A stretch of DNA of 53,429 nt from Nitrospinota bacterium (GTDB taxonomy: Bacteria; Nitrospinota; Nitrospinia; Nitrospinales; VA-1), in NCBI GenBank assembly GCA_009873655.1, contig WAIB01000001.1, forward strand, positions 66,237 to 119,665. Reading direction: 5' to 3'. The position numbers were made by a program, and so were the translations under genes. Shown piece after piece: positions 30,716 through 53,429 of the stretch. Within the stretch, counting starts at the first letter, position 1; every line of letters begins with the position of its first letter. The notes beneath the pieces were generated by a model. It did not search any database. It had not been told where the DNA came from and saw only the letters and a program-made list of their open reading frames with translations.

Positions 30716-32167
30716 ATTCTGGGCAACCTCTGAAGTCAAACCGGAGGCAGGCATACGCCACTGCCAGTTAGATTCTTTAGTCCCGGGAAAATTAAAACGG
30801 GCAGATCCATCCAACCCTAGAATATCCTGCATGGGTAGAATGGCGTATTGAGCGGGCGACATTAAAGCCAGACGAATCATCTCCCCTGATATTTCATCTG
30901 CAGAAACCTCTTTTCCCAGGTACTCAAAGAAATTTGACCTTTCCCGGGAATTCATATCGTTTTCAAACCACCCTCTTGCCGTATTGCAATCATGGGTTCC
31001 GGTATAAACCACACAATTTTCATTGAAATTATGAGGGAGGTAAGGATGGGTCTTTAAATCAGAGTCAAAGGCAAAAACCAGTATTTTCATTCCGGGGAAT
31101 CCACAATGAGTCATTAACTCGCGGACTTCCTCCGTAATCAAACCCAGATCTTCAGCAACGATAAAAGCACCTGGAAACTCATTCAACACCTGGGTAAAAA
31201 ATTCCCTTCCCGGTACCGAATGCCAGCTCCCATTTTCAGCTGTCTCATCACCTGCGGGAACCTCCCAGGCCGCAATGAAACCCCGGAAATGGTCGATCCG
31301 CATGATATCCATCATACCCATGCCGAACTTCAAACGCTGCATCCACCATTTATAAGAATCTTTTCTTAAAACATCCCAATCATAAACCGGGTTTCCCCAT
31401 AACTGTCCGGTTTCACTAAAATAATCAGGGGGGACCCCTGCAACCACACCAGGGTTTCCATTGGTGTCCAGCTTAAAAATTTCAGGGTTGGCCCAGACAT
31501 CGGAACTGTCGTGAGTGACATAAATAGGCAGATCTCCAAATATTTTGATTCCCTGATCAAGGCAGAAGTTTTTTAAACCCTTCCATTGTTCAAAAAAAAT
31601 GAATTGCGAAAACTTTTCAAAATCAATGGACCTCTGTAATTTACCCTTAAGATCACCCAAGGGGCCTGGCTCCCTCTTCCGGATTCCCAGAGGCCAATCA
31701 ACCCAAACGGAACCACCATAAAACTCTTTCAGGGCAATAAAAAATGAATAGTCTTCCAACCAGAAACTATTTTCATTGCAAAAACTTTCGTAAGCTTCAT
31801 TTAAATTTTCGATACGATTAAAAGCAATTTCCAGGTACCGGCGCTTCAACTTTCCAACTTCTCCATATTCAACCATTTTATTTGATAACACGGGAGGCGA
31901 TTCGATATCGGATGCCTGCAGCCATCCGTCCTCCACCATCTTTTCAGGACTGATCAACAATGAGTTCCCCGCAAAAGCGGAGGGACTGAAATAAGGGGAG
32001 TCACCCACAGTGGTGGGGTTCACAGGAAGAACCTGCCAGATTTTTTGTCCAGCCTGTTTTAGAAACTCAACAAATCTATAAGCATCGGGACCCATATCTC
32101 CTATTCCAAATCGGGAAGGCAGACATGTAATATGCAAAAGTATTCCACTTTGTCTTTGGTTTTTCAT
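30677..32167 (-). CDS. malQ: 4-alpha-glucanotransferase (GH77)
   Basis: Amylomaltase that moves alpha-1,4-glucan segments between chains. The 496-residue protein shows GILLHITCLPSRFGIGDMG, the IFGDLPIYVTHDSSDVWANP segment, MRIDHFRGF (nucleophile Asp region), FIVAEDLGLITEEV (acid/base Glu) and NCVVYTGTHDCNTARGW. This is the short GH77 type without the N-terminal starch-binding modules. It follows the GH57 gene by 19 bases on the minus strand; its 3' end overlaps that of glgP by 39 bases, an unusual antisense overlap of two enzymes in one pathway. Confidence 0.98.
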   Translation of the reverse strand: MKNQRQSGILLHITCLPSRFGIGDMGPDAYRFVEFLKQAGQKIWQVLPVNPTTVGDSPYFSPSAFAGNSLLISPEKMVEDGWLQASDIESPPVLSNKMVEYGEVGKLKRRYLEIAFNRIENLNEAYESFCNENSFWLEDYSFFIALKEFYGGSVWVDWPLGIRKREPGPLGDLKGKLQRSIDFEKFSQFIFFEQWKGLKNFCLDQGIKIFGDLPIYVTHDSSDVWANPEIFKLDTNGNPGVVAGVPPDYFSETGQLWGNPVYDWDVLRKDSYKWWMQRLKFGMGMMDIMRIDHFRGFIAAWEVPAGDETAENGSWHSVPGREFFTQVLNEFPGAFIVAEDLGLITEEVRELMTHCGFPGMKILVFAFDSDLKTHPYLPHNFNENCVVYTGTHDCNTARGWFENDMNSRERSNFFEYLGKEVSADEISGEMIRLALMSPAQYAILPMQDILGLDGSARFNFPGTKESNWQWRMPASGLTSEVAQNLAFLVDESGRAG

Positions 32168-32186
32168 TTTTTAAGGCAGGAAAACT

Positions 32187-34607
32187 TCAACAGGACGCTT
32201 CGGGACTAATATTCAAATAATTTAATGTCTTTTCCATCTCCTCAACCCAATCGCCTGCATTCTTATCCCCCTCCAGTTTGTTATTCTGCATTTCCTGAAA
32301 AAGGGAATTAATAATATCGAACATTTCATTTTGCGCGGTCCACAAATTTACTTTCATGGGAAGGGTATCTAACAAACCCAATAGAAAATTCAAACTGTGG
32401 AGATTTTCGATATTACGAGGAGATTTCTTTATCCTGATTATGGCTTGATTTATTTTCTCATGATAAACAGATTTGAACTCCAGGTTATCCAGAGACTGCC
32501 CGTCAGAAAATTTTAACATGTGCTGGATCTGCTTTCGAGAATTACCCGGGGAGTCTAATATCTCTTTCCACTGTTCAAACAATAAAAGTCTGGACAAGCT
32601 CAATGCATTTGAAGGGAGCGGGGTATCCATTCTGTTATGAAGCAGCAAAAATTTTTTCTGGCTGGAAAGCAATTTTCTGTTCAGGCCATCGTTTTCCGAC
32701 CAAAAGCTACCACCGATATCATCCGCAAGTTTGTCAAAGAAATTATGAAAGACGGCACGACCAGGGTAATTAGGCTGACCCAGGGTTTCTTTAAGTGAAT
32801 CCCGAGTTTTTTCATATCCCTCCCTGCGAAACAGGTTTGAAATTCTATCCTGAACCTCTTTAACATTAGTTAAAGAAGAAGTAACAAAAATCTTAAAATC
32901 GCCATCTCCTTCGTGAAGCGCAAAAAAGGCCATGGAAATTTTTTCCATGAAAATACTCTTTATCACATCGCCTCTTCCATAATACAATTCTGATTTCCCG
33001 AGACTGATTTTTTCCGCCCTGATATTTTCAACCTCACATGACCCCACTGAAACGGCAGTCTCATCTCTACCCAACAAATAGGCCAGCAATCCGCAGGAAA
33101 AAATATGGTTGACTGAAACCCGGTTGGATTCCACCATTTTCTTATAAATAAAATTGCCGTTTTTCCATTTTGGGATATTGCTTTTGGCTTGTCCTAAATT
33201 TTCGACAAAGGGTCCTTCCAGGCTGGTCTCATCCAATTGCGAAAACAACTCCAGTGCGAAGGAGGCATACCGAAGAACCTGCTCTGTTTCAATTCCGGAA
33301 ATATCATTAAAAAACCATCCACAGCTGGTGTACATGAGCATCGCGTGCCGCTGAATTTCCATCCATTTCAGCACATTGATTTTTTGCTCTTCGTTCAGGT
33401 CCGTTACCCCATGATTTTCAAAAAATTTTTTAAAATCTCTGTTCGATTGAAGCAAATGGATATAATCATTCCTCGCTGACCAGGGATCCTTTAATAAAGG
33501 ATCCAGGTATTTCTGAAATTTTTCGTTAAAACAATCACGCAAACCATCAAGAGAATCTCTCAAGGGTTTTCTCCAGGCTTGTGACCAGTCCTCCTGTCCC
33601 CCCGTATGGCAACCACAATCGCTCCGCCAACGCTCGATACCGTGAGCACAACTCCAGGAAGTGTTTTCTATAATCTCCACTTCCCATGCAGTTGGATGGT
33701 CCACCAGAAATTTTGAATAATTAGTTAAAGAATAAGATTCATGGTTCTGCAACCGGTCCAGCACATAAGCCAGAGTCATTTCACCGAATTTGTGATGGTG
33801 GCCATAGCTTTCCCCGTCGGTTGCGGCATGAACCAATTCCGGCTTTCCCGTATCTGTCGAAAACCGGGATGTCAGGCTATTAAAAAACCGGTCTCCATTA
33901 CTTAGAAGGTTTTCAAATGCCACTTGATGGGATACATTTTTATCGTAAAAAAACACGCTGAACTCACGGCCTGAAGGAAGCTGTATTTTATAGGGTCTTG
34001 TTGTATCCAACGAATCTTCTGTTACAGAAACCCAACTTGAGTTTTCACCGCTTCTTATCTTCTTTGCCTGACTGGGGGCAAGGATGGTAAAACGAACTCC
34101 CTCCCCTGCCAGCAGATCCAGGGTTTCAATATCCACGGCAGCCTCTGGCAACCATACGCCCACTGGGTTCCTTTTAAACCGGAGCTTAAAATCTTCGATT
34201 CCCCAGATAATTTGAGTCAATTTATCAGCCGAATTGGCAAGAGGCATGATCATGTGGTTATAAGGTTGCGCCAAAGCAGAACCATGTCCTTCAAACAACC
34301 TCTGGCTTTCCTTGTCTGCTTCCAATATGGCCTGATAGGTTTCCGGGGATTGGGATTCCAGCCAGCTCAACAGAGTTGGACCGAAATTAAAACTCATCCT
34401 GGAATAATTATTTATTATTTTTTTAATTCGCGAATCTTTATCGAGAATCCGTGCGCTTGCGTTGGGGGAATAACATTCTTCGGTGACTCTTTTATTCCAA
34501 TTCTTATAAGGTTCCGCGGATTCCTGGATCTCAATTTCCTGCGTCCAGGGGTTTTCCCGAGGGGGTTGATAAAAATGGGCGTGGATACAGATATATTTAT
34601 TCAGCAT
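32187..34607 (-). CDS. GH57 glycoside hydrolase with DUF3536 domain
   Basis: An 806-residue cytoplasmic enzyme of the GH57/COG1449 group. The N-terminal GH57 barrel starts YICIHAHFYQPPRENPW; the nucleophile Glu is in VGVWLPEAAVDIET and the acid Asp in HAATDGESYGHHHKFGE. After the first 330 residues comes the DUF3536 part, including WSCAHGIERWRSDCGC. Members are annotated as alpha-amylase/alpha-glucanotransferase-like and usually sit in glycogen clusters; exact activity is not established. Its ATG shares one base with the glgB stop codon (TGATG), so it is coupled to glgB and precedes malQ. Confidence 0.9.
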   Translation of the reverse strand: MLNKYICIHAHFYQPPRENPWTQEIEIQESAEPYKNWNKRVTEECYSPNASARILDKDSRIKKIINNYSRMSFNFGPTLLSWLESQSPETYQAILEADKESQRLFEGHGSALAQPYNHMIMPLANSADKLTQIIWGIEDFKLRFKRNPVGVWLPEAAVDIETLDLLAGEGVRFTILAPSQAKKIRSGENSSWVSVTEDSLDTTRPYKIQLPSGREFSVFFYDKNVSHQVAFENLLSNGDRFFNSLTSRFSTDTGKPELVHAATDGESYGHHHKFGEMTLAYVLDRLQNHESYSLTNYSKFLVDHPTAWEVEIIENTSWSCAHGIERWRSDCGCHTGGQEDWSQAWRKPLRDSLDGLRDCFNEKFQKYLDPLLKDPWSARNDYIHLLQSNRDFKKFFENHGVTDLNEEQKINVLKWMEIQRHAMLMYTSCGWFFNDISGIETEQVLRYASFALELFSQLDETSLEGPFVENLGQAKSNIPKWKNGNFIYKKMVESNRVSVNHIFSCGLLAYLLGRDETAVSVGSCEVENIRAEKISLGKSELYYGRGDVIKSIFMEKISMAFFALHEGDGDFKIFVTSSLTNVKEVQDRISNLFRREGYEKTRDSLKETLGQPNYPGRAVFHNFFDKLADDIGGSFWSENDGLNRKLLSSQKKFLLLHNRMDTPLPSNALSLSRLLLFEQWKEILDSPGNSRKQIQHMLKFSDGQSLDNLEFKSVYHEKINQAIIRIKKSPRNIENLHSLNFLLGLLDTLPMKVNLWTAQNEMFDIINSLFQEMQNNKLEGDKNAGDWVEEMEKTLNYLNISPEASC

Positions 34608-36514
34608 CAGCTTCTTGATAAAAAAATGGCCGCTAAAGGCGGAAGACTGATTTTTATTGAAAAGGGTTTACCGTGCAAAGGTTGGGAGATGGCTTCGACA
34701 CCCCCTAAATTTCCGATTCCACTGCCACCGTATTCTTTAGCGTCACTATTCAGCACCTCTTTCCAATGACCCGCTTCGGGAACTCCTATTTCATAATCAA
34801 ACCGGGGTGCAGGGGTGAAGTTCAGAACGATTACCATCTGGTCTTCCGCTCCATCCCCCTTTCGCAAAAAAACGAGAATACTCTCCTCGTGATTTGCACA
34901 ATCAATCCACTCAAAACCCTCTTCATCCAAATCCCTGCAATAAAGGGAAGGATGATTTCGGTACACTCTATTTAAATCTTTTACCCATTTTTGCAAACCG
35001 GAATGGGTTTCCTGATTCAGGAGGTCCCAATCAAGGCTGGAGTCGTGGTTCCATTCATTCCATTGACCAAATTCCCCACCCATAAACATTAATTTTTTGC
35101 CTGGCTGAGCAAACATGCAACCAAATAACAAGCGCAGATTGGCAAACTTCTGCCACTCATCTCCACTCATTTTATTTATTAACGATCCCTTTCCGTGAAC
35201 CATTTCATCGTGGGACAAGGATAAAACAAAGTTTTCATTGAAAGCGTAAAGGGAACGGAAGGTCAACTGGTCGTGATGATATTTTCGGTGAACGGGATCT
35301 TTGCTCATATAAGTAAGAAGATCATGCATCCATCCCATATCCCATTTCAATCCAAACCCCAACCCTCCCAGGTAGGTTGGCCTTGAAACTCCCGGCCATG
35401 CAGTGGACTCTTCTGCTATCGTTTGCACATCGGGGTATTCTTTATAAATTTCTTCATTGAGCCTTTTTAAAAATTCGATGGCTTCCAGGTTTTCATGGCC
35501 ACCCAATTTATTGGGGATCCACTCATTTTCTTTTCGGGAATAATCCAGATACAACATGGAGGCCACGGCATCAACCCGCAACCCGTCAATATGATAATGG
35601 TCAAACCAGAAAAGAGCGCTGCTTATTAAAAAACTTACAACTTCATTCCGCCCGTAGTTAAAAATAAAACTTCCCCAGTCCGGGTGCCAACCCTTTTTTT
35701 CATCTTTATGTTCATAAAGATGCGTGCCGTCGAAAAAAGAAAGGCCATGGCCGTCAACGGCAAAGTGCGAAGGAACCCAATCCAGAATAACCCCTATTCC
35801 ATTTTGATGGAGGGTATCAATGAGAAACATTAAATCCTGGGGGGAACCATAGCGACGGGTTGGAGAAAAATATCCCGTGGTCTGATAACCCCAGGACCCG
35901 TAATAAGGGTGCTCCATAACCGGCATGATTTCCACATGGGTGAATCCCATATCCCGAATATAATCCGACAAGGGTTGAGCCATTTCACGATAGCTTAAAG
36001 ATTTAAACGCATTGTGTTTTTTCCATGACCCGAGATGAAGTTCATAAATGGAGACAGGTTGCGTTTTAACATCATTAAATTTTTTCCTGTTTTGCATCCA
36101 GGTTTGATCATTCCAGGAATAATCCAGGACTTGAACCAGGGAACCCGATTTGGGAGGAACTTCACTCGAAAACGCAAAAGGGTCTGCCTTTTCTACCTCA
36201 TAACCTCCGAAACGGGATCGGATATGGTACTTATAGGTTTCACCTTCTTTTACCTGTGGAATAAACAAGGACCATATTCCGGATTGTTTCAGGGGAAACA
36301 TCAAGTGGGAATCTGCATTCCAGCCATTAAAATCGCCCATCACGGACACCTTCTCAGCATCGGGAGCCCAGACGGAAAACCTTACACCCGGAATACTATT
36401 TTCAACCACCCGATGAGCACCCAGATAGTTGTAGAGCCGAAAATGGCTCCCTTCATTAAACAAATGGAGATCGAAATCGCTCATTTCGTTTTGTATTTTT
36501 TCAACTTTGCTCAT
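34607..36514 (-). CDS. glgB: 1,4-alpha-glucan branching enzyme (GH13)
   Basis: Introduces alpha-1,6 branches into glycogen. In its 635 residues a CBM48 N-terminal module (VRFSVWAPDAEKVSVMGDFN) precedes the GH13 barrel: DWVPSHF, GLRVDAVASMLY (nucleophile Asp), TIAEESTAWP (acid Glu) and LSHDEMVHGKGSL (third carboxylate). The GSWGYQTTGYFSPTRRYG segment is typical of GlgB. It lacks the extra N1 module of enterobacterial forms, which explains the shorter length. First gene of glgB-GH57-malQ; no glgA or glgC lies in the window. Confidence 0.98.
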   Translation of the reverse strand: MSKVEKIQNEMSDFDLHLFNEGSHFRLYNYLGAHRVVENSIPGVRFSVWAPDAEKVSVMGDFNGWNADSHLMFPLKQSGIWSLFIPQVKEGETYKYHIRSRFGGYEVEKADPFAFSSEVPPKSGSLVQVLDYSWNDQTWMQNRKKFNDVKTQPVSIYELHLGSWKKHNAFKSLSYREMAQPLSDYIRDMGFTHVEIMPVMEHPYYGSWGYQTTGYFSPTRRYGSPQDLMFLIDTLHQNGIGVILDWVPSHFAVDGHGLSFFDGTHLYEHKDEKKGWHPDWGSFIFNYGRNEVVSFLISSALFWFDHYHIDGLRVDAVASMLYLDYSRKENEWIPNKLGGHENLEAIEFLKRLNEEIYKEYPDVQTIAEESTAWPGVSRPTYLGGLGFGLKWDMGWMHDLLTYMSKDPVHRKYHHDQLTFRSLYAFNENFVLSLSHDEMVHGKGSLINKMSGDEWQKFANLRLLFGCMFAQPGKKLMFMGGEFGQWNEWNHDSSLDWDLLNQETHSGLQKWVKDLNRVYRNHPSLYCRDLDEEGFEWIDCANHEESILVFLRKGDGAEDQMVIVLNFTPAPRFDYEIGVPEAGHWKEVLNSDAKEYGGSGIGNLGGVEAISQPLHGKPFSIKISLPPLAAIFLSRS

Positions 36515-42675: not shown

Positions 42676-45600
42676 CTAGTCTTCACAAACGGTGCGAAAG
42701 CCAAGAAAGGAAGTGCAATAGTTTTTAATGAAAGAAATTCGGCGCCAGGGAGCAATATTTTTAAAATGGGTTATAAAACTTCCCCCTCTTGCTATTTTAT
42801 AAGTCAACCCATTTGAGGGACCGTTTGAATGATTGCTTCTGGGATGATCATCTTCCACCCATTCGAATACATTTCCAAACAGGTCCGTGATGCCGCCAAA
42901 GTATTCATTTTCAGGAAAATGATCAACGGGCAACGTTCCATATATGCCTGTTTCTTCAATATTGCAAAACTCAACGACCCTGTCTTCATCCCAGAAAAAT
43001 TGATCTGGAGTCGCTTTCCCAAAATTGCTGGCAACATATTCCCATTCCTTTTCAAAAGGAAGGCGAATCGTCTGCCCCGTTGTTTCGCTTTTCCACTTGC
43101 AAAATGCTTTAGCATCGTTCCAGGTGACTTGTGTCACGGGATGATTATGTTTTCCATAAAGTGAGTCTGGCTGACTATCAGGGCAAAGCCAGAAAGCGTC
43201 TTTCTCTGGAGTGAGACTGGGATTGGAAAAAGAGGACCTGGGTTCATGGTCGCCATGTAAGGCCAAATTCCCATGATGAAAAACAATGGCGTCAATTAGA
43301 GATTCCGCCTCTGTTTTATATTTGGTTTCGTTTATGAATTTGAAAAATTCTACATTTGTTACCGGATATTTTCTCATTAAAAACGGTTTCTCAATGGTGA
43401 TTTCCCGGTGAGGGGCGGAATCTTTTTTCCGAGGGTGACCCATGATAAATTTTCCGGTGGGTATTTTTACCCATTCATCCCATTTTTCACTGAACTTGTA
43501 TAGATATTCTGTTATATGAGCATTTTTTTCATTGATTGCAGCTGAACCAAGGCGCTGGCGGATCGCCAACGGCCATTCCGCTTTTGCAAGTGCATCGTCA
43601 TATTCCAGGGGTTTCTTTTCATCTTCCTCGGGAACGATTTCTACCTGGCCTTTTTCTTTCTCGACTTGAAAAGCTTCTGAAAGTTCTTCAAAGGCTTTTC
43701 CAAGGTGGGTGAGCTTGTCTTCGTAATGGGAAAGGCTTTCCAGCAATTCTGCCTTTCGCGATTCATCTTCCTCATTCATGGATTTTTTTACGTCAGCCAG
43801 TTCCTGTACAAAATTTTGATATTCTTCCACCCGTCCGCGCAGATCTTTCTCCATTACATCGACCATGGATTCGCGATGTTTTAGTCTTTCCTGTAAAACT
43901 TTTTCTGCGGCTATGGTTTCTTCGGTTATTAGTTTTTCCTTGTCCTTCAGGTTAGAGGTCAGTCGCACAGCCTCTTCTTCCATGGTGGCTATCCGTTTTT
44001 TAAATTCCTCGTATTCCGTTCCTTGTGACTGGAGAATTTGATTGTAGGTTGTTTTGAAATCATCGAGGAAATTTTTTACCTCCACCTGGTGTTGGAGGAC
44101 ATCCGATTTTACAAGTTGAATTTCCTGAAGTTCGGTTCTTATTTCTTCTTCAACTTCCTCAATGCTTTGTCGACTGGTTTTTTCTTCAGCCATCTGCTGC
44201 TGCTGAAGCTCAAGGATTTTTCTTTCTTCCGCTTCTAATTCTTCTTCTTTGTTATCCAGGGCCATTTCCTTTTCGATCTGGCCTACTTCCAGCGAGTTTT
44301 TAAACTCTTCGAACTCCTGGTTCATGATTTTGAGCTCTTCGGTTTCTCTTTCTAAAAGTCCTTTTTCTTTCTCCCGAAGGCGTTTTTGGTCTTCCAGGAG
44401 AGCTTCGTTTTTTTCTGCCAGTTTCTTTTGCTCTTTTTCATGCTCCTCTTCAAGCTCGGCAAGCTTTTCTTTTAATTCTTCCTCGTACTTGGGCCGGCCT
44501 TCGTCCATGGCCTTGTATAGTTTGCGTTTTCTTTTTAAAAGGTTTTCCTGTGTTTTAGCGGCGGTTTTTATCTGGTCGATGGCAAAATTTCCGCCTTCGA
44601 TTCCACTCATTTCCTTGATGAGCGAAGCTTTCTCGAGGTTGTTTTCCTTTTCTTCTTTATTGAGCAGTTTTTGTTTTCTTGAAATTTCCTTTTCCAGTTT
44701 TTCTAATTCAGCGAGCCTTTTTTTAGTTTGTTCATCGGCTTTTCTTTGGGCTTCCAGAGCAAGGCCCTGCTCGCGAATTCGCAGCCTTTCGTTTTCTCTT
44801 CCCAGGCGTTCTTCATCCTCTTCGAACTCTTCGAGTCGGCGAATATGGTATTCCGATCGGCGCTGATATTCTGTTTCCAGCTCTTCTTTTTTTGTGTCGT
44901 AGCTTTCCTTTAATTTGGCTTTAAACAGTTTTTTCTCGTTTTCAAGCGTTTTGGAAAGTTTGAGCAATTGTTGGTTTTTCTTTGCCTGCTGGTTTGCCGT
45001 TCGCTTCAACTGCACTTGTTTTTCTTTGGCCGCCTTGAAAGCTTTCTCTTTGTAATTATGAATCTCCTGTTCTTCCTGGACCAGTTTTTCCATGAGCTCG
45101 GTCATTTCATCAAATTTTGCCCTGAAAATCTGGTCCCTTCGGGTGAAGTCTGTATCCATACGCGTGCGTGTGGATTCATGATCTGTTAAAAGCTGATTTT
45201 TTTCTTCTCGAAGCTCGCTTAACTCTTTTTGGGCTTCTTCCAATTCTGAGCGGATGCGAATGTTTTCTTTTTCCGATTGTTCTTTAGCCTGATCAGTATG
45301 TTTCTGCTCTTCCTCCCGCAATTTTTGAATCTGCGATCTGAATTCGGAATTTTCTTTTTCCATTTTCACCTTGGCTTCTTCAAGGTGTTTTTCTTTTTCC
45401 AGAATTTCCTTCATTTGCTTGTTTGCGAGCTCTTCTTTTTCTTTAAGCCTTTGAAGCTGGTTCTCGAATTCCCCTTTGAGTTCCTCCGGGAGATTGAAAG
45501 TTATTTCCGACTCTTTAAATTTTCGACCCTGATCCGTAGGTTCAATTTTTGCGGGAGGGGTCTCCGTTCCTTCAAATTGGATGAAATTTAAATTGCTATC

Positions 45601-45912
45601 GAGGGATAGAGACGCCGGGTTTCCCCGCTCCGACATCAAGGCGAGCAACTCGTTGTTTAATTTTTCCCGCAGGGAATTTAACCAGGTTCTTTGTTCTTCT
45701 TCGTTATCGGGTAAGGATGAAAAATTTCCCGAATTCCGGATTTTGTCGATTAAAACTTCAAAGGGAACAGGGGGCACGGATTCTGGCGGCTGTCCCGTTG
45801 AATAGAATTCCTGAATGATTTGCAGGAGGGATACAGGTTCGGGGCTCCCTGTTTGGGAATAATGGTCGATGAGCTCCTGGACATCTTTTAGACTGAAATT
45901 TTTCCGGGCCAT
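42676..45912 (-). CDS. Giant coiled-coil protein with C-terminal CLec/FGE-sulfatase domain
   Basis: A 1078-residue protein with no signal peptide or membrane span. After an N-terminal part (about 1-150) comes a very long heptad-rich, Glu/Lys/Gln-dominated coiled coil (about 150-780), then an FGE-sulfatase (DUF323/SUMF1) fold at about 814-1078: KIPTGKFIMG, FLMRKYPVTNVEFFKFI, HPVTQVTWNDAKAFCKW, IRLPFEKEWEYVAS, GITDLFGNVFEWVED and IARGGSFITHF ... LGFRTV. In true formylglycine-generating enzymes two Cys follow RGGS; here FITHFKN replaces the first site, so catalysis is doubtful and a ligand-binding CLec role is likelier. No clear SD. It probably forms a filament or scaffold. Confidence 0.85.
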   Translation of the reverse strand: MARKNFSLKDVQELIDHYSQTGSPEPVSLLQIIQEFYSTGQPPESVPPVPFEVLIDKIRNSGNFSSLPDNEEEQRTWLNSLREKLNNELLALMSERGNPASLSLDSNLNFIQFEGTETPPAKIEPTDQGRKFKESEITFNLPEELKGEFENQLQRLKEKEELANKQMKEILEKEKHLEEAKVKMEKENSEFRSQIQKLREEEQKHTDQAKEQSEKENIRIRSELEEAQKELSELREEKNQLLTDHESTRTRMDTDFTRRDQIFRAKFDEMTELMEKLVQEEQEIHNYKEKAFKAAKEKQVQLKRTANQQAKKNQQLLKLSKTLENEKKLFKAKLKESYDTKKEELETEYQRRSEYHIRRLEEFEEDEERLGRENERLRIREQGLALEAQRKADEQTKKRLAELEKLEKEISRKQKLLNKEEKENNLEKASLIKEMSGIEGGNFAIDQIKTAAKTQENLLKRKRKLYKAMDEGRPKYEEELKEKLAELEEEHEKEQKKLAEKNEALLEDQKRLREKEKGLLERETEELKIMNQEFEEFKNSLEVGQIEKEMALDNKEEELEAEERKILELQQQQMAEEKTSRQSIEEVEEEIRTELQEIQLVKSDVLQHQVEVKNFLDDFKTTYNQILQSQGTEYEEFKKRIATMEEEAVRLTSNLKDKEKLITEETIAAEKVLQERLKHRESMVDVMEKDLRGRVEEYQNFVQELADVKKSMNEEDESRKAELLESLSHYEDKLTHLGKAFEELSEAFQVEKEKGQVEIVPEEDEKKPLEYDDALAKAEWPLAIRQRLGSAAINEKNAHITEYLYKFSEKWDEWVKIPTGKFIMGHPRKKDSAPHREITIEKPFLMRKYPVTNVEFFKFINETKYKTEAESLIDAIVFHHGNLALHGDHEPRSSFSNPSLTPEKDAFWLCPDSQPDSLYGKHNHPVTQVTWNDAKAFCKWKSETTGQTIRLPFEKEWEYVASNFGKATPDQFFWDEDRVVEFCNIEETGIYGTLPVDHFPENEYFGGITDLFGNVFEWVEDDHPRSNHSNGPSNGLTYKIARGGSFITHFKNIAPWRRISFIKNYCTSFLGFRTVCED

Positions 45913-46054
45913 GGAGAAATAAAGGTTCTCTTATAATTTTGGTTTCGAGTAACCTGAAAAATAGAGATACGGTTTATTGGTATTCAACGGAAAAACCGGC
46001 TTAAAACCTTACCATTATTATAACAAACAGACCTTTATTTATAAAGAGTTACCC

Positions 46055-47290
46055 TCAGCTTCCGGGTCGGTGGCCGTGTTTGATTTCCGGAATGAGCATC
46101 AGGGTGGCGAATAGCATCATGGCAAAGGATAAAATGCCAATATTCTGGGCTCCAATCAGGTTGACAGTCCAATATCCCATTATGGGACCGATGGTTCCCC
46201 GGATCCCCGTGAGACTGACATGAACGGACATATAAGCCCCGGTTTTTCCCGGAGGTGCGTATTTGGTCACCCAGAGATTCCACGCAATGCTGCCACCGGC
46301 AAAAGCCGCTCCAATCATGGCCGACCCGAGCCCTATGATCCATGGATTGGAGGTAACAAAAAACAACAAAATCCCAAAACCAAAAAACAGGTTCAAAATC
46401 ATCCGCAAAATGACAAAGTTCATTTTGTCGAAAAGGGAAGCCCAAAAGGGAATAAGCAACATGCGCATCGTTTCCGGGATGATGGTGATTATCATGGCTA
46501 CAAAAATTGCAGACCCTTCAATTCCCCATTGCGGAGCGGTTATATAATCCACTCGAAGAGGCAAAGTCCAGAGATTGGCAAATCCCATTATGAACCAGGT
46601 TAATAGAACATATCCGAAGGATTTGTCATGAATGGCATATTTCATATTGCCAAAGGGGTTCGTGTGGGAACTGTTTAATATGGTTTCCGAGGGCATGGAT
46701 ATAATAGCCATCGCTTTTCCGATGGCACATAATCCCAGAAACGTGAATAACCAATGATAATTGTCGATATCCAACTCCAGGATCCAGGAGCCGATAAATC
46801 CTGAGAGGGCCGCGACTCCTACGGTGAGTAAAAGGGGCCTGGAGAAAAAAGCAGCACGTTTGTCGGGCGGATAATTATCGCTGTAAATTTCTGTAATAAA
46901 GGGAATTAAGGCACTCCGACAAATGTAGCCCGCGATCACCGTACAGGCAAAAAGAGTAAGAGATTGCGTCCAGGCCGCAATAAAAAGGCATCCCCCTGTA
47001 ATGAATGATGGGAGAGCGCCCCAGGTAGACTTCTTCCACTGTGTAAAAGAGGCATAATGCAATAACACCATTGAAAGGAACATTCCCATAAAAGGGGCTG
47101 CCGCGATCAGGGCCTTGGTGGTTTCACCGGCATGGAAAAACCGAATGGCTATGAACAGGCAAAATGTTTGAGCCCCCGAGGAAAGCACTCCCTCAAAACC
47201 CCCGCGCCATAAATCGCCGCGATACGTTTTTTGGGTTTTCTCCTCCAGGTTCTGACCGGTGGACTCCTTCAATTCAATTGACCCCGGCAC
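46055..47290 (-). CDS. MFS transporter
   Basis: An inner-membrane permease of 411 residues with about twelve spans. A GTG start at 47290 is the only option and overlaps the upstream TPR gene by 22 bases. The first half includes PFMGMFLSMVLLHYASFTQW, the second YAPPGKTGAYMSVHVSLTGI, typical of the MFS group of unknown specificity (MFS_1). The overlap with the TPR gene implies co-transcription. It sits between the coiled-coil gene and cinA. Substrate not deducible. Confidence 0.82.
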   Translation of the reverse strand: MPGSIELKESTGQNLEEKTQKTYRGDLWRGGFEGVLSSGAQTFCLFIAIRFFHAGETTKALIAAAPFMGMFLSMVLLHYASFTQWKKSTWGALPSFITGGCLFIAAWTQSLTLFACTVIAGYICRSALIPFITEIYSDNYPPDKRAAFFSRPLLLTVGVAALSGFIGSWILELDIDNYHWLFTFLGLCAIGKAMAIISMPSETILNSSHTNPFGNMKYAIHDKSFGYVLLTWFIMGFANLWTLPLRVDYITAPQWGIEGSAIFVAMIITIIPETMRMLLIPFWASLFDKMNFVILRMILNLFFGFGILLFFVTSNPWIIGLGSAMIGAAFAGGSIAWNLWVTKYAPPGKTGAYMSVHVSLTGIRGTIGPIMGYWTVNLIGAQNIGILSFAMMLFATLMLIPEIKHGHRPGS

Positions 47291-47730
47291 TTAGCGATAT
47301 ACACCTTATTGAATTCGGCAAAGGGTTGAATAGCCAATGCGGTTTTAAAACTTTCGATGGCCACGAGGTAGTTGGCAAGCTGATAATGACAAAGGCCGAG
47401 GCCATTCCAGGCTCCGAAGTGATTGGGATTCATTTCCAGAGTGATTTCGCATTCCTTAATGGATTCGTTATATTTTCTTTGTAAATAGAGAACGGTCGCA
47501 AGTTTATTGTGGGCCTCCGCAAATTCGGGATAATTTGTTACCAGGTTTTCAAATTCCTGTTGTGCTAACCCATACTGGCGCATATCCATTTGCTTTGTTC
47601 CCTCGCGAATTCGAGACTCTGCTTTTTTCCCAGCCTGGCCAAGCCAGAGGTTCCATAATGCGTGGGTTGCGTTTTCCCGTAATTCGGGATTATCGCTCAA
47701 TAAATCTTTTAAAAGTGCTTTCTCTTCCAT
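47269..47730 (-). CDS. TPR protein
   Basis: A 153-residue soluble protein. After an N-terminal helical part (EEKALLKDLLSDNPELRENA) there are three TPR units: AQQEFENLVTNYPEFAEAHN, SIKECEITLEMNPNHFGAWN and AIESFKTALAIQPFAEFNKV. No signal peptide. It is divergent from cinA and overlaps the MFS gene by 22 bases, so the two are made together. The partner is unknown; TPR and MFS fusions or pairs are not a family I can name. Confidence 0.88.
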   Translation of the reverse strand: MEEKALLKDLLSDNPELRENATHALWNLWLGQAGKKAESRIREGTKQMDMRQYGLAQQEFENLVTNYPEFAEAHNKLATVLYLQRKYNESIKECEITLEMNPNHFGAWNGLGLCHYQLANYLVAIESFKTALAIQPFAEFNKVYIAKCRGQLN

Positions 47731-47888
47731 TTCCGCAAATTTTCATTTTTAAAACGAAGGAAGGCCATATTGTAACAGGTAAATCCTGTTTTTGGGTTTA
47801 CAACTCGGGAACGAATTATTTTTCTCGAACCTGACCAAATGTAAGCGTAAAATCGTGAAAAAGAAACTTAACCACTCTGGGGAACCGT

Positions 47889-49181
47889 ATGGGTTTTAAT
47901 AATGCCAATTCGGCGCAGGCGGAAATTCTTGTCATAGGTGATGAAGTTATAAGCGGCTTCATAGTGGATACAAATTCCAAATTCCTGGGACAACGGATTT
48001 TCGAACTGGGAATGCGCGTGTCGCGTATAACGAAAATAGGGGATGATTCTTCAGCGATTCAGGAATGTGTGGAAAACGCCCTGGAGCGTTCTGATTGGAT
48101 TATCCTGACAGGGGGCCTGGGAGCCACTCATGATGATATTACCAAATCCGTGGTAATGAAAGTTTTTGGTTCCAATCTTCGCCGAGATGAAAAAGTTGCG
48201 GCCATGTTGCAGGAGATTTTTAAGAGAAGAAACAGGGATATCCCGGATAGTGTGCAGACTCAATGTGAAGTTCCTGACAACTGCCGGGTTCTTTATAATG
48301 AAGTAGGAACCGCTCCGGGATTTCGATTTGAAAAAAAGGGACATGTTTTATTTTGTCTTCCGGGTGTTCCCCACGAAATGAAACATTTATTCGAACAATA
48401 CATTGCCCCGGAGATCTCCAAACACTCCCACCAGGTTTTCACACAGCGCATTTTAAAAACGACAGGAATTTCAGAAGCGGGTTTGTGGGAAAAAGTGGGC
48501 TCCATTGCTGAATTGCAGAAGAAAGTAAATATCGCCTCTTTGCCGTCTCATCTTGGCGTGCGCATTCGACTGTCCTGTAACGAAGCAACCAAAGAGGAAG
48601 GGGAAGCGGCTATTGACGAGGCCGAACAGGAATTGATGGGAAAAATCGGCCAATACGTTTATGGAAGAAATGAGGAATTGCTGGAAGAAATAGTCGGTCA
48701 ATTACTGACAGAAAAATCCATGACTTTAGCCACTGCCGAATCCTGCACCGGAGGGTTGATAGGGCATCGTGTGACTCAAATCTCAGGAAGTTCAAAATAT
48801 TTTAAGGAAGGGTTTGTTGTATACAGCAATGATGCAAAAGTTTCCCGATTGGGGGTCGATCAAAATACCCTGGAGAAGTATGGTGCGGTGAGTGAACCGG
48901 TGGCCCGTTTGATGGCCGAAGGGGTTTGCCGGGTTTCGAGGGCGGATATTGGGGTTTCCGTAACGGGGATCGCGGGTCCCACCGGGGGCAGCGAAGAAAA
49001 GCCGGTGGGATTAACTTATATAGCAGTCAGCGACTCCAAGGGCACATGGTGTGGAAAATACATTTACACACATGACCGTATTAAAAATAAAGAACGTGTG
49101 GCACAAACAGCTTTAAATTTAGTGCGCTTGAAGTTATTAGGTTTGTTGAGGGAAGAAAATGAAAATGCGAAGCTGCCCTAA
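47889..49181 (+). CDS. cinA: CinA-family nicotinamide-nucleotide amidase
   Basis: Pyridine-nucleotide recycling protein with an N-terminal MoaB/COG1058 domain and a C-terminal CinA amidase. Visible: EILVIGDEVISGFIVDTNSK, the WIILTGGLGATHDDITKSV loop, FCLPGVPHEM, and in the second half TLATAESCTGGLIGHRVTQI (catalytic Ser/Lys region) and VSVTGIAGPTGGSEEKPVGL. Length 430 is normal. The next gene (zinc-ribbon membrane protein) overlaps its end by 23 bases. It is divergent from the TPR-MFS pair. No recA beside it. Confidence 0.95.
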   Translation: MGFNNANSAQAEILVIGDEVISGFIVDTNSKFLGQRIFELGMRVSRITKIGDDSSAIQECVENALERSDWIILTGGLGATHDDITKSVVMKVFGSNLRRDEKVAAMLQEIFKRRNRDIPDSVQTQCEVPDNCRVLYNEVGTAPGFRFEKKGHVLFCLPGVPHEMKHLFEQYIAPEISKHSHQVFTQRILKTTGISEAGLWEKVGSIAELQKKVNIASLPSHLGVRIRLSCNEATKEEGEAAIDEAEQELMGKIGQYVYGRNEELLEEIVGQLLTEKSMTLATAESCTGGLIGHRVTQISGSSKYFKEGFVVYSNDAKVSRLGVDQNTLEKYGAVSEPVARLMAEGVCRVSRADIGVSVTGIAGPTGGSEEKPVGLTYIAVSDSKGTWCGKYIYTHDRIKNKERVAQTALNLVRLKLLGLLREENENAKLP

Positions 49182-49350
49182 TTGCGAGAAAAGTATTTCA
49201 TTAGATATTGAGATTTGTCCTCATTGCAATCAGCAGGTGCCTCCTTTGCCGAATTACCCCAGTGCCAATCCCAAATGGTTTATGGTTTTATGGGGCTTTT
49301 TTGTGATTCTGATTATTGCTTTGCTCATTTCCATGTTCAGTGTCCGTTAA
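49159..49350 (+). CDS. Small zinc-ribbon membrane protein
   Basis: A 63-residue protein with two CxxC pairs (SCPNCEKS, ICPHCNQQ) and one C-terminal membrane span (FMVLWGFFVILIIALLIS). The arrangement is that of a zinc-ribbon domain anchored by a tail, facing the cytoplasm. It overlaps the end of cinA in another frame, so it is likely translated by coupling. The GGAAG-like SD lies inside cinA. Function unknown. Confidence 0.75.
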   Translation: MKMRSCPNCEKSISLDIEICPHCNQQVPPLPNYPSANPKWFMVLWGFFVILIIALLISMFSVR

Positions 49351-49988
49351 TTTTTGGAAAAATTTTTAAAGGGAAGGATGAGTAGAACCCCGGCCACAAA
49401 TCCCCCGATATGAGCGAACCAGGCCGTCCCGCCCGCTTCGGCGGAAACACTGTTCCAGATTTGCAGAATGACCCAAAACAAAAGCAAAAGGATGGCTGGA
49501 ATGCGGGCAATCGTCCAGAAAAAACCCAGAAAGACAAAGGTTCTTATTTTCGCAAAAGGGAATAAAATCAAATACCCTCCCAATATTCCCGATATGGCCC
49601 CGCTTGCACCAACCATGGGTATTTTAGAATCAATATCGGTAGCGATATGCCCGAGGGCGGCGAGGGTGCCACAGACAAAATAAAATAGTACAAAACGTGC
49701 TTTACCCAGTACGTCTTCGATATTGTTTCCGAAAATCCAAAGATAAAGCATGTTTCCACCCAGATGCCAGATTCCGGCATGAAGAAACATGGATGTATAA
49801 ACTGTGGGATAAACGGATAGGGGATTATTGATAAGTTGAGCGGGGATCAAGGCGTATTCGGCATAAAGTACGCTGGGATGAACGGGTAAATTGACACCAT
49901 AAACAAAAACACCCATGTTTAAAATAATAAAGAGCAGGGTTAAGAATGGAAAATTACGTGTGGGGTTTTCATCTTTAAGGGGAATCAT
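49347..49988 (-). CDS. Rhomboid-family intramembrane serine protease
   Basis: A 213-residue inner-membrane protein with six or seven spans. The catalytic dyad is visible: Ser in MVGASGAISGILGGY and His in WFAHIGGFVAG; the oxyanion-region HLGGNMLYLWIFG is typical. It cleaves membrane-spanning substrates within the bilayer. Its end overlaps the zinc-ribbon gene by 4 bases. The NACHT gene begins about 100 bases away on the opposite strand, so the two are divergent and may share a regulatory region. A link between rhomboid and NACHT is speculation. Confidence 0.94.
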   Translation of the reverse strand: MIPLKDENPTRNFPFLTLLFIILNMGVFVYGVNLPVHPSVLYAEYALIPAQLINNPLSVYPTVYTSMFLHAGIWHLGGNMLYLWIFGNNIEDVLGKARFVLFYFVCGTLAALGHIATDIDSKIPMVGASGAISGILGGYLILFPFAKIRTFVFLGFFWTIARIPAILLLLFWVILQIWNSVSAEAGGTAWFAHIGGFVAGVLLILPFKNFSKN

Positions 49989-50088
49989 CGGTTACTTTTA
50001 CGCAATATGATAGTATTAGAAAAGAGAGTTGAGTATAGATTGGAAATTGACATTCCAGGACATTATAAGCGATTAAATTTATTTGACC

Positions 50089-52494
50089 ATGGATGATATT
50101 GAAGGACTGGTTCCATTATCAGAAGGAGAAGATCTTCCCGTCGCTCCGGAACGACCGGAAGAATCATTGGATTGGGTGATCGAAACTTACCGCAAGCACC
50201 AGTTGAACAGGGTGACCGAGTGGTTAAACGAAAACCTTGGAAAGGGCAGAGGAAAAAAAACCCTCATTCCGCGAATTTTGCTAGACGTTAATCCGATTGA
50301 TCACAGGCAAAGTTTGCTTGAAGTGGTCTTCCCCGCACCTCGGCGCATCAATGAAAAACTGCTCGATGTGAATAGATTGAAATTTATGCTGGATGCAGAC
50401 TCGGGAATGGGTAAAACCACTTTCCTCATGCATTATCTTGAAGAGCTTCTGGATGAACCTTCCCACTCGATTTATTCCCTGCCTGTCTACTTCCATTTGG
50501 GAAACGTTCCTGAAGGGGGAGGGTTTCAGCAATTCCGCGAAACCGTAAATCAGGAAATTATTGAAGTGATACTCCTTGAAAAAGAAGAGAACCCCGATTT
50601 GATTCTGGATGAAGAATTGCTGCAGGGAACCCTCAACTCCATTTTTGGGTACAGCAAATTCATGTTTTTGCTTGATGGTTTTGACCAGCTTCATCCCCAG
50701 GACAGGTTCCGGTTTTTTGTTGATTCTTTTTTAGAAGACAATGCCTTCCGCAGCAATTTTGTATTGCTGGCAAGCCGAAAATTTGAGTTTGGTTCTTTAG
50801 CCACCGATGCCGTGGTCAAACGGGGTGAAAGCACCGCCTTTCAAATGACGTTTCAGCCCCTTTCATCAGAGGAAACCAGCGTTTACCTGGCCGACGCGGC
50901 AAAAAATAATGTCATCAAAGAGCTTGCGGCCTATACCCCGGAACTTTTGGTAACCCCTGTTTTGCTGAAGATGATTCGCGGACTCTCTGAAAACGAACAA
51001 CTGGAAGGGTTGAGTAACAGGGCCGAAATTTATGAGCAATGGTTCAAACATTTAATATTGCTTGTAGATCCGAAAGAGGAAAACGAAGTTTTGGAGAACG
51101 GCATGAATCAGCTTGCTGAAATTTCGTTTCAGCAAATGCTGGATGGAAAAATTCAACGCTATCAGAAGGAAGAGCCCGGCTACGAAAAATCTCATATCGA
51201 CAAGGAAAAATTTGATCGGGTCATTCAGGAAAATGAAATCGCCCCCAGATGGAAAGGGATCATCCAGCAAACACCGCGCAGGTGGGAGTTTTGCCATCCT
51301 TCCTTCCAGGAGTTTCTGGCCGCAAGGCACATTGCGAAAATCGCTGATTGGAAAAAAATAGTGAGGGAAAATTGTGGAAACGAAAAATGGCACGAGGCTT
51401 TTAAAATTTTAGCGGGTTTCGTTTCGGGAAAAGAGCTGTTCGATATTTTTATTGAAGAGGGAGCGGTTATGTTGGCGGGGAACTCCCTCGCAGAGGTAAA
51501 GGAACTTCCCGAAGGACAAAGCCTGTTGATTCGCCAGTTATTAAAGTATCAATGCCATGAATCTCTCCCGCAATTCAAACCCTGTCGGCTGGTTCGCGTT
51601 GATGATGTGTGGAAAACAAATGAAGAGGATTATCTGCATGCCTTGTTGAACAGATTGTTGATGCGTGAACATCGCGACAGCAGAATATTGTTCAGTGTTT
51701 TTGAGCTTGTTCTGAAAAAGGAAGGGTTAAACATCCATGAATTGCTGGATTCTTTCGACTTAGAGCCGATTAGAAAACTCGAAAGGTTTCAGGAATTTTT
51801 CAGTGAATCAAAGGATGGAGGCCAGGTGGCTCTTTCCAGGATTAAAAAATTTGGAGAAATGGTAACCGTTCCAAAAGGAAAATTTATATATCAGGAAGAA
51901 GAGGATGAAGAGGACAAGGTAAATTTAGAAGAATTTTCGATCATGAAATTTCCTGTTACCAATGCCCTGTACATGGAATTCGATCCACAGCATAAATCCC
52001 GTTACCCATTATATTCGTGGGAGGAGGATCAACCCGTAATAGGAATTAACTATTATGAGGCCGTTATTTTTTCCCTTTGGCTGGGGCTCCGGTTGCCGAC
52101 CGAAAAGGAATGGGAAAAAGCGGCAAGAGGAACCGACGGCAGGATTTACCCCTGGGGAGAAGCCATGGGATATGAAAAGGGTTTTGCCAATACATGTGAT
52201 TTTATGGAATGTAAAACCAACCCGGTTACCGAGATGGAACCGGGAATGTCGCCCTATGGGTGTTTTGATATGGCGGGAAACGTATGGGAATGGTGCATGC
52301 AGTGGAATTCCTCCAAACATTCAACTCAACGGATTGTCAGGGGGGGATCCTGGATGAATTATCTTGTGCATGCGAAGTGTATTTTCAGGAACTCTTTTGA
52401 TCCGGCTGAAAGGTACCTGGCTGTGGGCCTGCGATGTGTTTCAGGTCCCCGTTTTACGGAAATCGAGGAAGAAGATATGGATGAGGATGAATAA
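50089..52494 (+). CDS. NACHT (STAND) NTPase with C-terminal CLec/FGE-sulfatase domain
   Basis: An 801-residue soluble protein from the ATG at 50089. N-terminal 100 residues: no recognised effector domain. NACHT module: Walker A ADSGMGKTTFL (about 102-112), Walker B FMFLLDGFDQL (about 191-201), sensor region LLASRKF. Helical regulatory region to about 580, including the NACHT-typical FCHPSFQEFLAARHIA. From about 590 a CLec/FGE-sulfatase fold: VPKGKFI, MKFPVTNALYM, LRLPTEKEWEKAARGTDGR, YPWGEAMG, FDMAGNVWEW, IVRGGSWMNY. The first FGE Cys after RGGS is replaced. STAND proteins act as ligand-triggered switches in defence or signalling; a role of this kind is inferred, not shown. Confidence 0.88.
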   Translation: MDDIEGLVPLSEGEDLPVAPERPEESLDWVIETYRKHQLNRVTEWLNENLGKGRGKKTLIPRILLDVNPIDHRQSLLEVVFPAPRRINEKLLDVNRLKFMLDADSGMGKTTFLMHYLEELLDEPSHSIYSLPVYFHLGNVPEGGGFQQFRETVNQEIIEVILLEKEENPDLILDEELLQGTLNSIFGYSKFMFLLDGFDQLHPQDRFRFFVDSFLEDNAFRSNFVLLASRKFEFGSLATDAVVKRGESTAFQMTFQPLSSEETSVYLADAAKNNVIKELAAYTPELLVTPVLLKMIRGLSENEQLEGLSNRAEIYEQWFKHLILLVDPKEENEVLENGMNQLAEISFQQMLDGKIQRYQKEEPGYEKSHIDKEKFDRVIQENEIAPRWKGIIQQTPRRWEFCHPSFQEFLAARHIAKIADWKKIVRENCGNEKWHEAFKILAGFVSGKELFDIFIEEGAVMLAGNSLAEVKELPEGQSLLIRQLLKYQCHESLPQFKPCRLVRVDDVWKTNEEDYLHALLNRLLMREHRDSRILFSVFELVLKKEGLNIHELLDSFDLEPIRKLERFQEFFSESKDGGQVALSRIKKFGEMVTVPKGKFIYQEEEDEEDKVNLEEFSIMKFPVTNALYMEFDPQHKSRYPLYSWEEDQPVIGINYYEAVIFSLWLGLRLPTEKEWEKAARGTDGRIYPWGEAMGYEKGFANTCDFMECKTNPVTEMEPGMSPYGCFDMAGNVWEWCMQWNSSKHSTQRIVRGGSWMNYLVHAKCIFRNSFDPAERYLAVGLRCVSGPRFTEIEEEDMDEDE

Positions 52495-52711
52495 GAATAC
52501 CCTGGATTCAGCGAATAAGCTTTATTTCCAAAGGGATATTTAAAACTATTTTATATTCAATAAGTTAATTGATAGAATAGTTCAAAAAATCCAGTTGGAA
52601 ACCAAAAGTAAATTATTGGCAGGCAATTTGAAGTTTTTTTTGCAAAAATAGGTTAAAATTGGCATTTTTCACTTAAGGGCATGATTTTCCGAAAAATTTG
52701 AGATTTTACTT

Positions 52712-53429
52712 ATGAACAAACACGCGAAGAAATTTCTCAGTATTGACGATGACAGGACTTTGCAGATGATCGTCAAACAGATTTTGAGTAAATCGTTTGG
52801 CCCCCAGGTGCTCGAAGTTTTTCAGGTAGGTACCGGAGAAGAAGGGTTGAAAATGATGCGCGAAATTCAACCCGATATTATTCTTTGCGATATCCATATG
52901 CCGGGGATGAGCGGTTTTGAAGTTTGTCAAAAGGTGAGGGAATTGAAACTGCGATCTGCCGTAATCCTCATGTCCGCTTATGATTCTGAGCAGGACAATG
53001 CAATCAAAGCCAGTGAAACAGGTGCCGACGCATATCTATCCAAACCATTAAAAAAAGGCGAATTGCTGTTTGTTGTTAATTTTGTCATGCGCGTCGCCCA
53101 TTTAAACGATGCCGTTTTCGCAAAAAATAAGCAGTTGGAAGCCTCTTTGGATCAATTGAAGCAATTTCACCAGAAACTGGCGGCCTTGAATGAGGAACTT
53201 CGAAATGACAAAAGGCGTCTGGGCGCCAGCCTGAAAGAAATGACAGAATTGAACGATCAGCTGGAAAGTAAAAACCAGCAGATTTCTTCCATGGTGGACG
53301 AACTGGCCAGCCGTTTTGACTCCACAGAAGGGTTGCTCGCGACCATCATCGAGTTGCACCAGACCGAACACCGCGGGCATTCGGAAAGGGTTACTGAGAT
53401 TGCCATATATATTGCGGAAAAACTGGGCC
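52712..53429 (+). CDS. Response regulator with coiled coil and start of an HD-GYP-like domain (3' end outside window)
   Basis: Residues 1-125 are a receiver domain: acidic pocket LSIDDDRT, phospho-accepting Asp in IILCDIHMPGMSG, switch Ser in LMSAYD and Lys in LSKPL. A coiled coil (KNKQLEASLDQLKQF ... LNDQLESKNQQ) follows. The visible end, HQTEHRGHSERVTEIAIYIA, matches the start of an HD-GYP domain, a c-di-GMP phosphodiesterase in known members. The frame is open to the window end. It lies about 220 bases after the NACHT gene with an intervening AT-rich stretch, so co-transcription is uncertain. A histidine kinase is not in the window. Confidence 0.85.
   Translation, partial: MNKHAKKFLSIDDDRTLQMIVKQILSKSFGPQVLEVFQVGTGEEGLKMMREIQPDIILCDIHMPGMSGFEVCQKVRELKLRSAVILMSAYDSEQDNAIKASETGADAYLSKPLKKGELLFVVNFVMRVAHLNDAVFAKNKQLEASLDQLKQFHQKLAALNEELRNDKRRLGASLKEMTELNDQLESKNQQISSMVDELASRFDSTEGLLATIIELHQTEHRGHSERVTEIAIYIAEKLG

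Follow-up and report, generated by a model that had tools for sequence, protein, structure and literature searches.

The 53,429-nucleotide stretch of Nitrospinota DNA analysed here (the window), positions 66237-119665 of contig C11 in a 2.5 Mb genome (G000), encodes a STAND NTPase of the NACHT type that is fused to a C-terminal FGE-sulfatase domain (NACHT-FGE) and that is a single-copy, vertically inherited and strongly constrained core gene of its order. Its known bacterial counterparts behave as rapidly changing genes for defence against phages. Since this gene is fixed, slowly evolving and order-wide, the signal sensed by its product is probably a constant one and not the changing phages. 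The coding sequence (50089 to 52494, plus strand) is a single frame of 801 amino acids with an ATG at 50089 and a stop codon ending at 52494. The mechanically called open reading frame begins at an in-frame TTG at 50083; M1 of the ATG start is near-invariant in the orthologue alignment. The preliminary description of this DNA had read the protein as a NACHT/STAND switch ending in a C-type-lectin (CLec) or FGE-sulfatase fold, and domain matches, motifs, two AF2 models and Foldseek comparisons all agree with it on this point. A search of window positions 46000-53429 revealed no known RNAs, riboswitches included, and terminators and promoters around the gene are as numerous as in shuffled sequence.

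In the survey of the phylum, in which counts were tallied by hand and most genomes are draft assemblies, the orthologue is present, whole or cut by contig ends, in 59 of the 64 genomes of the order. The assignment of these genomes to the order (Nitrospina and relatives) is judged from the relatives in the named collection, which are Nitrospina and Nitrospinaceae MAGs. The gene is carried by all 28 order genomes with a completeness of 90% or more and a contamination of 5% or less, and the five without it (G003, G005, G034, G052 and G067) are 57-78% complete. The 13 genomes from other families of the same class are without it, and a search of 291 genomes with a profile of residues 1-589 gave no match at 1e-60 in the 214 genomes from beyond the phylum. 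Each genome holds one NACHT part when the query is this part without FGE, and G000 has no second NACHT domain at E <= 0.001. A contig scan with a single-protein query, which detects close relatives only, returned Nitrospinota relatives only.

The protein belongs to the NACHT clade of STAND NTPases, as its Walker motifs, winged-helix histidine motif and NLR-like fold are all present. The nucleotide-binding domain (residues 96-240; 50374 to 50808, plus strand) gives a Pfam NACHT match at residues 104-236 (1.8e-6, 28.3 bits, cut-off 26.7), and both the NACHT and the FGE domain are matched in all 36 aligned orthologues. In the Walker A motif GMGKTT (residues 106-111; 50404 to 50421) G106, G108 and K109 are invariant in these 36, and in the Walker B motif FLLDGFDQ (residues 193-200; 50665 to 50688) D196 is invariant and D199 is found in 35. 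A second acidic residue after the Walker B aspartate is usual in NACHT proteins. Here the corresponding residue 200 (50686-50688) is Q in 22, R in six, L in four and E in only four of the 36 orthologues, so that Walker B, first reported as intact along with Walker A, mostly lacks this acidic residue. This substitution hints at slow or weakened hydrolysis. The region between the two domains (residues 241-586; 50809 to 51846) is HD1-WHD-HD2-like according to AF2 and Foldseek. It includes the NACHT winged-helix motif FCHPSFQEFLAARHIA (residues 401-416; 51289 to 51336), with Q407 and E408 in all 36 orthologues and H403 in 35, and weak Pfam matches to NLRC4_HD2 occur in this helical middle in five of the 36 members. 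The full-length AF2 model built from the 36 orthologues (mean pLDDT 79.5, pTM 0.81) matches NLRC4 (5.6e-10), NOD2 (9.3e-10) and NLRP3 (1.7e-8) over 550-616 columns, which cover most of the first 590 residues. The TM scores to the NLRs are modest (about 0.3 globally, about 0.34 for NLRC4), which shows that the domain arrangement differs. Like these animal NLRs, NACHT-FGE has a NACHT-HD1-WHD-HD2 fold, but where they carry an LRR sensor and a death-fold N-terminus it has an FGE domain and a short helix.

The N-terminal segment (residues 1-95; 50089 to 50373, plus strand) consists in the AF2 model of a disordered stretch (1-17) and one long helix (27-50) ahead of the nucleotide-binding domain, and the orthologue alignment reveals a conserved patch comprising W29, L65-D66, N68, R73-Q74-S75 and R85. 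No effector, adaptor or EAD domain occurs among the 25 most frequent of the 29 Pfam families matched at E <= 0.5 in the 36 members, and a bDLD1 match (E = 0.092) is limited to a single member. The absence of a recognised killing domain from the N-terminus, noted from the outset, is thus borne out by both Pfam and the model.

The FGE-sulfatase, or C-type-lectin-fold, domain at the other end (residues 590-784; 51856 to 52440, plus strand) is matched by Pfam at 2.5e-40. It came out poorly in the full-length run, where pLDDT falls below 50 at residues 684-732 and 745-769, and was remodelled alone, together with paralogues. The resulting model (pTM 0.84) matches human FGE (5e-14, TMq 0.74), and CalU17, PvdO and Treponema variable protein 1 are further structural matches. 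Together with the strong conservation of the domain, the resemblance to human FGE, CalU17 and PvdO could be taken to mean that this end is a working enzyme under the control of the NACHT switch, one that generates formylglycine or performs an EgtB/PvdO-like oxidation. Active FGEs have a Cys-X4-Cys segment following GGS (C336 and C341 in the human enzyme). In all 36 orthologues this segment is replaced, after GGSW and in a shorter loop, by an invariant N757-Y758, and C703 and C708 lie at another place in the fold and occur in only part of the orthologues. Nor is there, in this domain, an invariant His across the orthologues that might serve as an iron ligand, or a fused DinB-type domain detectable by Pfam. 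The protein thus shares the fold of formylglycine-generating enzymes but not their active site; an active FGE is rejected on the missing catalytic pair, and an enzymatic role of this kind is improbable. As both the Cys pair and an invariant His are lacking, the fold probably serves for binding and not for FGE or EgtB catalysis, and chemistry of some other type is conceivable. The fold itself is unusually expanded in G000, where FGE-sulfatase-like matches are found in at least 27 places. The window also encodes a long coiled-coil protein of 1078 residues (42676-45912, minus strand) whose C-terminal domain is FGE-sulfatase (9e-41). This second FGE fusion is syntenic too, recurring in this neighbourhood in about 11 loci.

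NACHT-FGE co-evolves with RibD and RibBA. Pairwise protein distances correlate with those of RibD and RibBA (r = 0.91 each), and the overall rate is close to that of RibD (slope 1.10). By part, the slopes against RibD are 1.32 for the helical middle, the fastest-evolving part, 1.13 for the NACHT core, 1.02 for the N-terminus and 0.70 for FGE. A single-gene FastTree tree of NACHT-FGE recovers f1 and f2 as monophyletic families but not f4; the corresponding trees of RibD and CinA likewise fail to recover some families. In 16 close pairs, dN/dS (Nei-Gojobori) is 0.05-0.11 for the whole gene and 0.02-0.08 for FGE, and 60 of 199 positions are invariant in FGE compared to 12 of 145 in the NACHT core. 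In an arms race the sensor is expected to be the fast-evolving part. The putative sensor of NACHT-FGE is instead the slow part, the opposite of that expectation.

The locus is part of the housekeeping chromosome and not a defence island. Gene order was read from the loci of 40 genomes, where these are long enough, and is commonly CinA, a zinc-ribbon protein, a divergently oriented rhomboid, NACHT-FGE, a response regulator-HD-GYP protein, MotA, MotB, RibD, RibE, RibBA, RibH and NusB, with PurE, YrdC, AcpS and a lipid A acyltransferase on the other side. The window further carries a glycogen metabolism cluster (28220-36514) encoding a phosphorylase, GH77, GH57/DUF3536 and an alpha-amylase/CBM48 branching-enzyme-like protein. 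The motAB loci fetched from outgroups are without cinA or rib neighbours, and an ancestral 'empty site' is not reconstructable from them. The HD-GYP gene (52712 to 53429 in the window, plus strand), the first of the HD-GYP-motA-motB-rib operon, lies directly downstream of NACHT-FGE in 34 of the 40 loci; four lack it at this place and two end at a contig edge. The gap between the two genes is mostly about 150-490 bp, compared to some 20 bp at most between HD-GYP, MotA and MotB in the majority of loci, which makes it probable that NACHT-FGE forms a transcription unit of its own. In two genomes (G045, L085:5054-7279; G047, same place in L086) a lineage-specific open reading frame of 741 amino acids, membrane glycosyltransferase-like with TPR, is placed between NACHT-FGE and HD-GYP and overlaps the former by 11 bases. 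Homologues lying consistently inside a housekeeping operon had been named in the preliminary description as evidence that would speak against a defence system. The constant site between cinA and the HD-GYP-motAB-rib operon comes close to this, and only the apparently separate unit departs from it.

The constant position upstream of HD-GYP, motA and motB might suggest that NACHT-FGE specifically regulates motility or c-di-GMP through these genes. The wide gap does not favour this, and the gene survives when they erode. In G000 itself, just past the window end (L127:4948-6504), HD-GYP is broken up into two frames that overlap, no motA is present and a remnant is all that is left of motB, although an assembly error is possible; NACHT-FGE is intact. 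Taken at face value, the stator operon is apparently being lost in this genome. The neighbouring HD-GYP and/or mot genes are also gone or remnant in seven genomes that retain NACHT-FGE (G004, G013, G015, G016, G021, G060 and G061), and no flagellar rod-family protein is found in three of these, G013, G016 and G021, which are 91-97% complete. Two of them are small (G016, 1.6 Mb; G021, 1.7 Mb), and G021 is also without the rhomboid. A dedicated role in motility is accordingly quite improbable.

The rhomboid protease encoded head-to-head with NACHT-FGE (49347 to 49988, minus strand; Pfam Rhomboid 2.4e-34), across a short intergenic gap in most loci, had been put forward as an effector acting in trans, and a receptor signalling through this protease would fit the arrangement. 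No rhomboid homologue is found, however, in five genomes that all keep NACHT-FGE, four of them 96-97% complete (G010, G018, G021 and G039) and one 87% complete (G022). That proposal is thus abandoned, and signalling through the rhomboid is highly improbable. As NACHT-FGE outlives the loss of the rhomboid as well as that of MotAB and the flagellum, neither is an obligate partner.

The usual view of bacterial NACHT and STAND proteins is that they serve in defence, and STAND-FGE fusions are regarded as antigen sensors that diversify. No report on this Nitrospinota gene was found in the open-licence literature. The architecture as such is not new, contrary to the first suggestion of an undescribed system, as STAND NTPase-FGS fusions are reported to be widespread and predicted to counter invaders, often with EADs or effectors and DGRs, and a bDLD3 form is known from certain proteobacteria and nitrospinae (PMC8195603). 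NACHT-FGE shares with them the order of a central NTPase (NACHT, MNS or nSTAND1 in theirs) and a C-terminal FGS/FGE domain, but they often have an N-terminal EAD, bDLD3 or effector and are often multi-copy and often DGR-linked, whereas it has none of these N-terminal domains and occupies a fixed single-copy locus. Nor is a cognate effector encoded alongside, the conserved neighbours being CinA, rhomboid, HD-GYP, MotAB and Rib proteins. NACHT/nSTAND1-CLec proteins are also DGR targets in multicellular bacteria, where the CLec ends are without experimental characterisation (PMC10907252). They too combine NACHT with a C-terminal CLec/FGE domain, and many have N-terminal extensions of no known domain, but their CLec end is hypermutated by a reverse transcriptase, whereas the FGE domain is here the most constrained part. 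DGR diversification of NACHT-FGE is rejected, as G000 has no reverse transcriptase (RVT_1) and dN/dS of its FGE domain is low, with no hypervariable end. A Nostoc plasmid match is itself a DGR conflict locus, with a trypsin-like peptidase, an AAA ATPase, two FGE proteins, Avd and a reverse transcriptase. The nearest protein of the same architecture found outside the order is a 925-residue DUF4062-NACHT-FGE protein from another family of the class (G059, L095:345-3122). The succession of NACHT and FGE is shared (23% identity over some 849 aligned positions), but this protein has an additional N-terminal DUF4062 and a different neighbourhood, and it looks like a conflict protein. This relative makes an ancestry in a defence system plausible, and suggests that NACHT-FGE descends from a protein of the conflict type whose N-terminal effector was lost or had never been there. 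The fixed, non-diversifying and order-wide core form appears to be undescribed in the literature searched.

These relationships bring in the main alternative, a domesticated and fixed innate immune receptor of the bNACHT type whose FGE domain would recognise a conserved phage feature and whose partner would halt the cell. It draws on the likeness to the predicted NTPase-FGS conflict proteins and DGR sensors and on the DUF4062 relative, and Nitrospinae have been hypothesised to be under extensive predation by phages (PMC8026999). In addition, the bNACHT proteins tested in one study are anti-phage, and those of clade 14 protect although they have no discernible effector domain (PMC12169576), so that defence is compatible with a missing effector; what a conserved sensor recognises could also be a phage fold that is itself conserved. 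NACHT-FGE has the NACHT module in common with these proteins (bNACHT02/12 of clade 14 and bNACHT25 of clade 6) and, with clade 14, the lack of a discernible effector. The bNACHT proteins have C-terminal SNaCT or NCH1, however, and a demonstrated anti-phage function, whereas NACHT-FGE ends in FGE and has no defence context. It is also not patchy, mobile or found in defence islands, but single, fixed and vertically inherited at one syntenic site throughout the order, and shows no turnover. None of its neighbours is a defence gene, PADLOC gives no match up to E = 0.1, its NACHT part has no match in phage records, and every plasmid match covers less than 80% of the protein, the best-listed ones falling in the C-terminal part. 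Together with the slow sensor and the lack of a reverse transcriptase in G000, this runs counter to the phage-defence setting first envisaged. Anti-phage defence is possible but not favoured, and an immune receptor of this kind is unlikely, if still to be reckoned with.

We lean slightly towards NACHT-FGE being a fixed STAND switch of ordinary physiology, with a dead FGE pocket for sensing an invariant ligand and with its output in trans. In the resting state the NACHT module would hold ADP and be closed by the winged-helix domain (H403, Q407 and E408). The catalytically dead FGE/C-lectin end would bind a constant ligand through its invariant pocket, presumably not a phage antigen that diversifies but an endogenous or environmental one (e.g. 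a peptide, a glycan or an envelope component). This binding would lift the autoinhibition and permit ATP exchange and oligomerisation, with hydrolysis perhaps slow, given the absent second acidic Walker B residue. As no effector domain is fused, the output is expected in trans, the assembled helix 27-50 and the conserved patch from W29 to R85 putatively recruiting a partner encoded elsewhere. The ligand, the oligomerisation, the partner and the physiological rather than immune role are inferences. Sequence by itself does not separate the physiological from the immune reading, and the rhomboid, motility and enzyme readings are weak. That a bacterial NLR-type receptor has gone from conflict to being a core physiological sensor in this order of nitrite oxidisers is, in our view, an evenly balanced proposition.

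If NACHT-FGE is indeed a core physiological sensor, it would be one of the first bacterial NACHT proteins to serve in housekeeping and not in immunity. The presence of such a constrained core gene, kept even in small genomes, suggests that NLR-like switches may act in ordinary bacterial physiology, or else that an immune receptor has become fixed throughout an order, and cautions against calling every bacterial NACHT gene phage defence. Either answer matters for the origins of NLRs and for the biology of the main nitrite oxidisers in the ocean.
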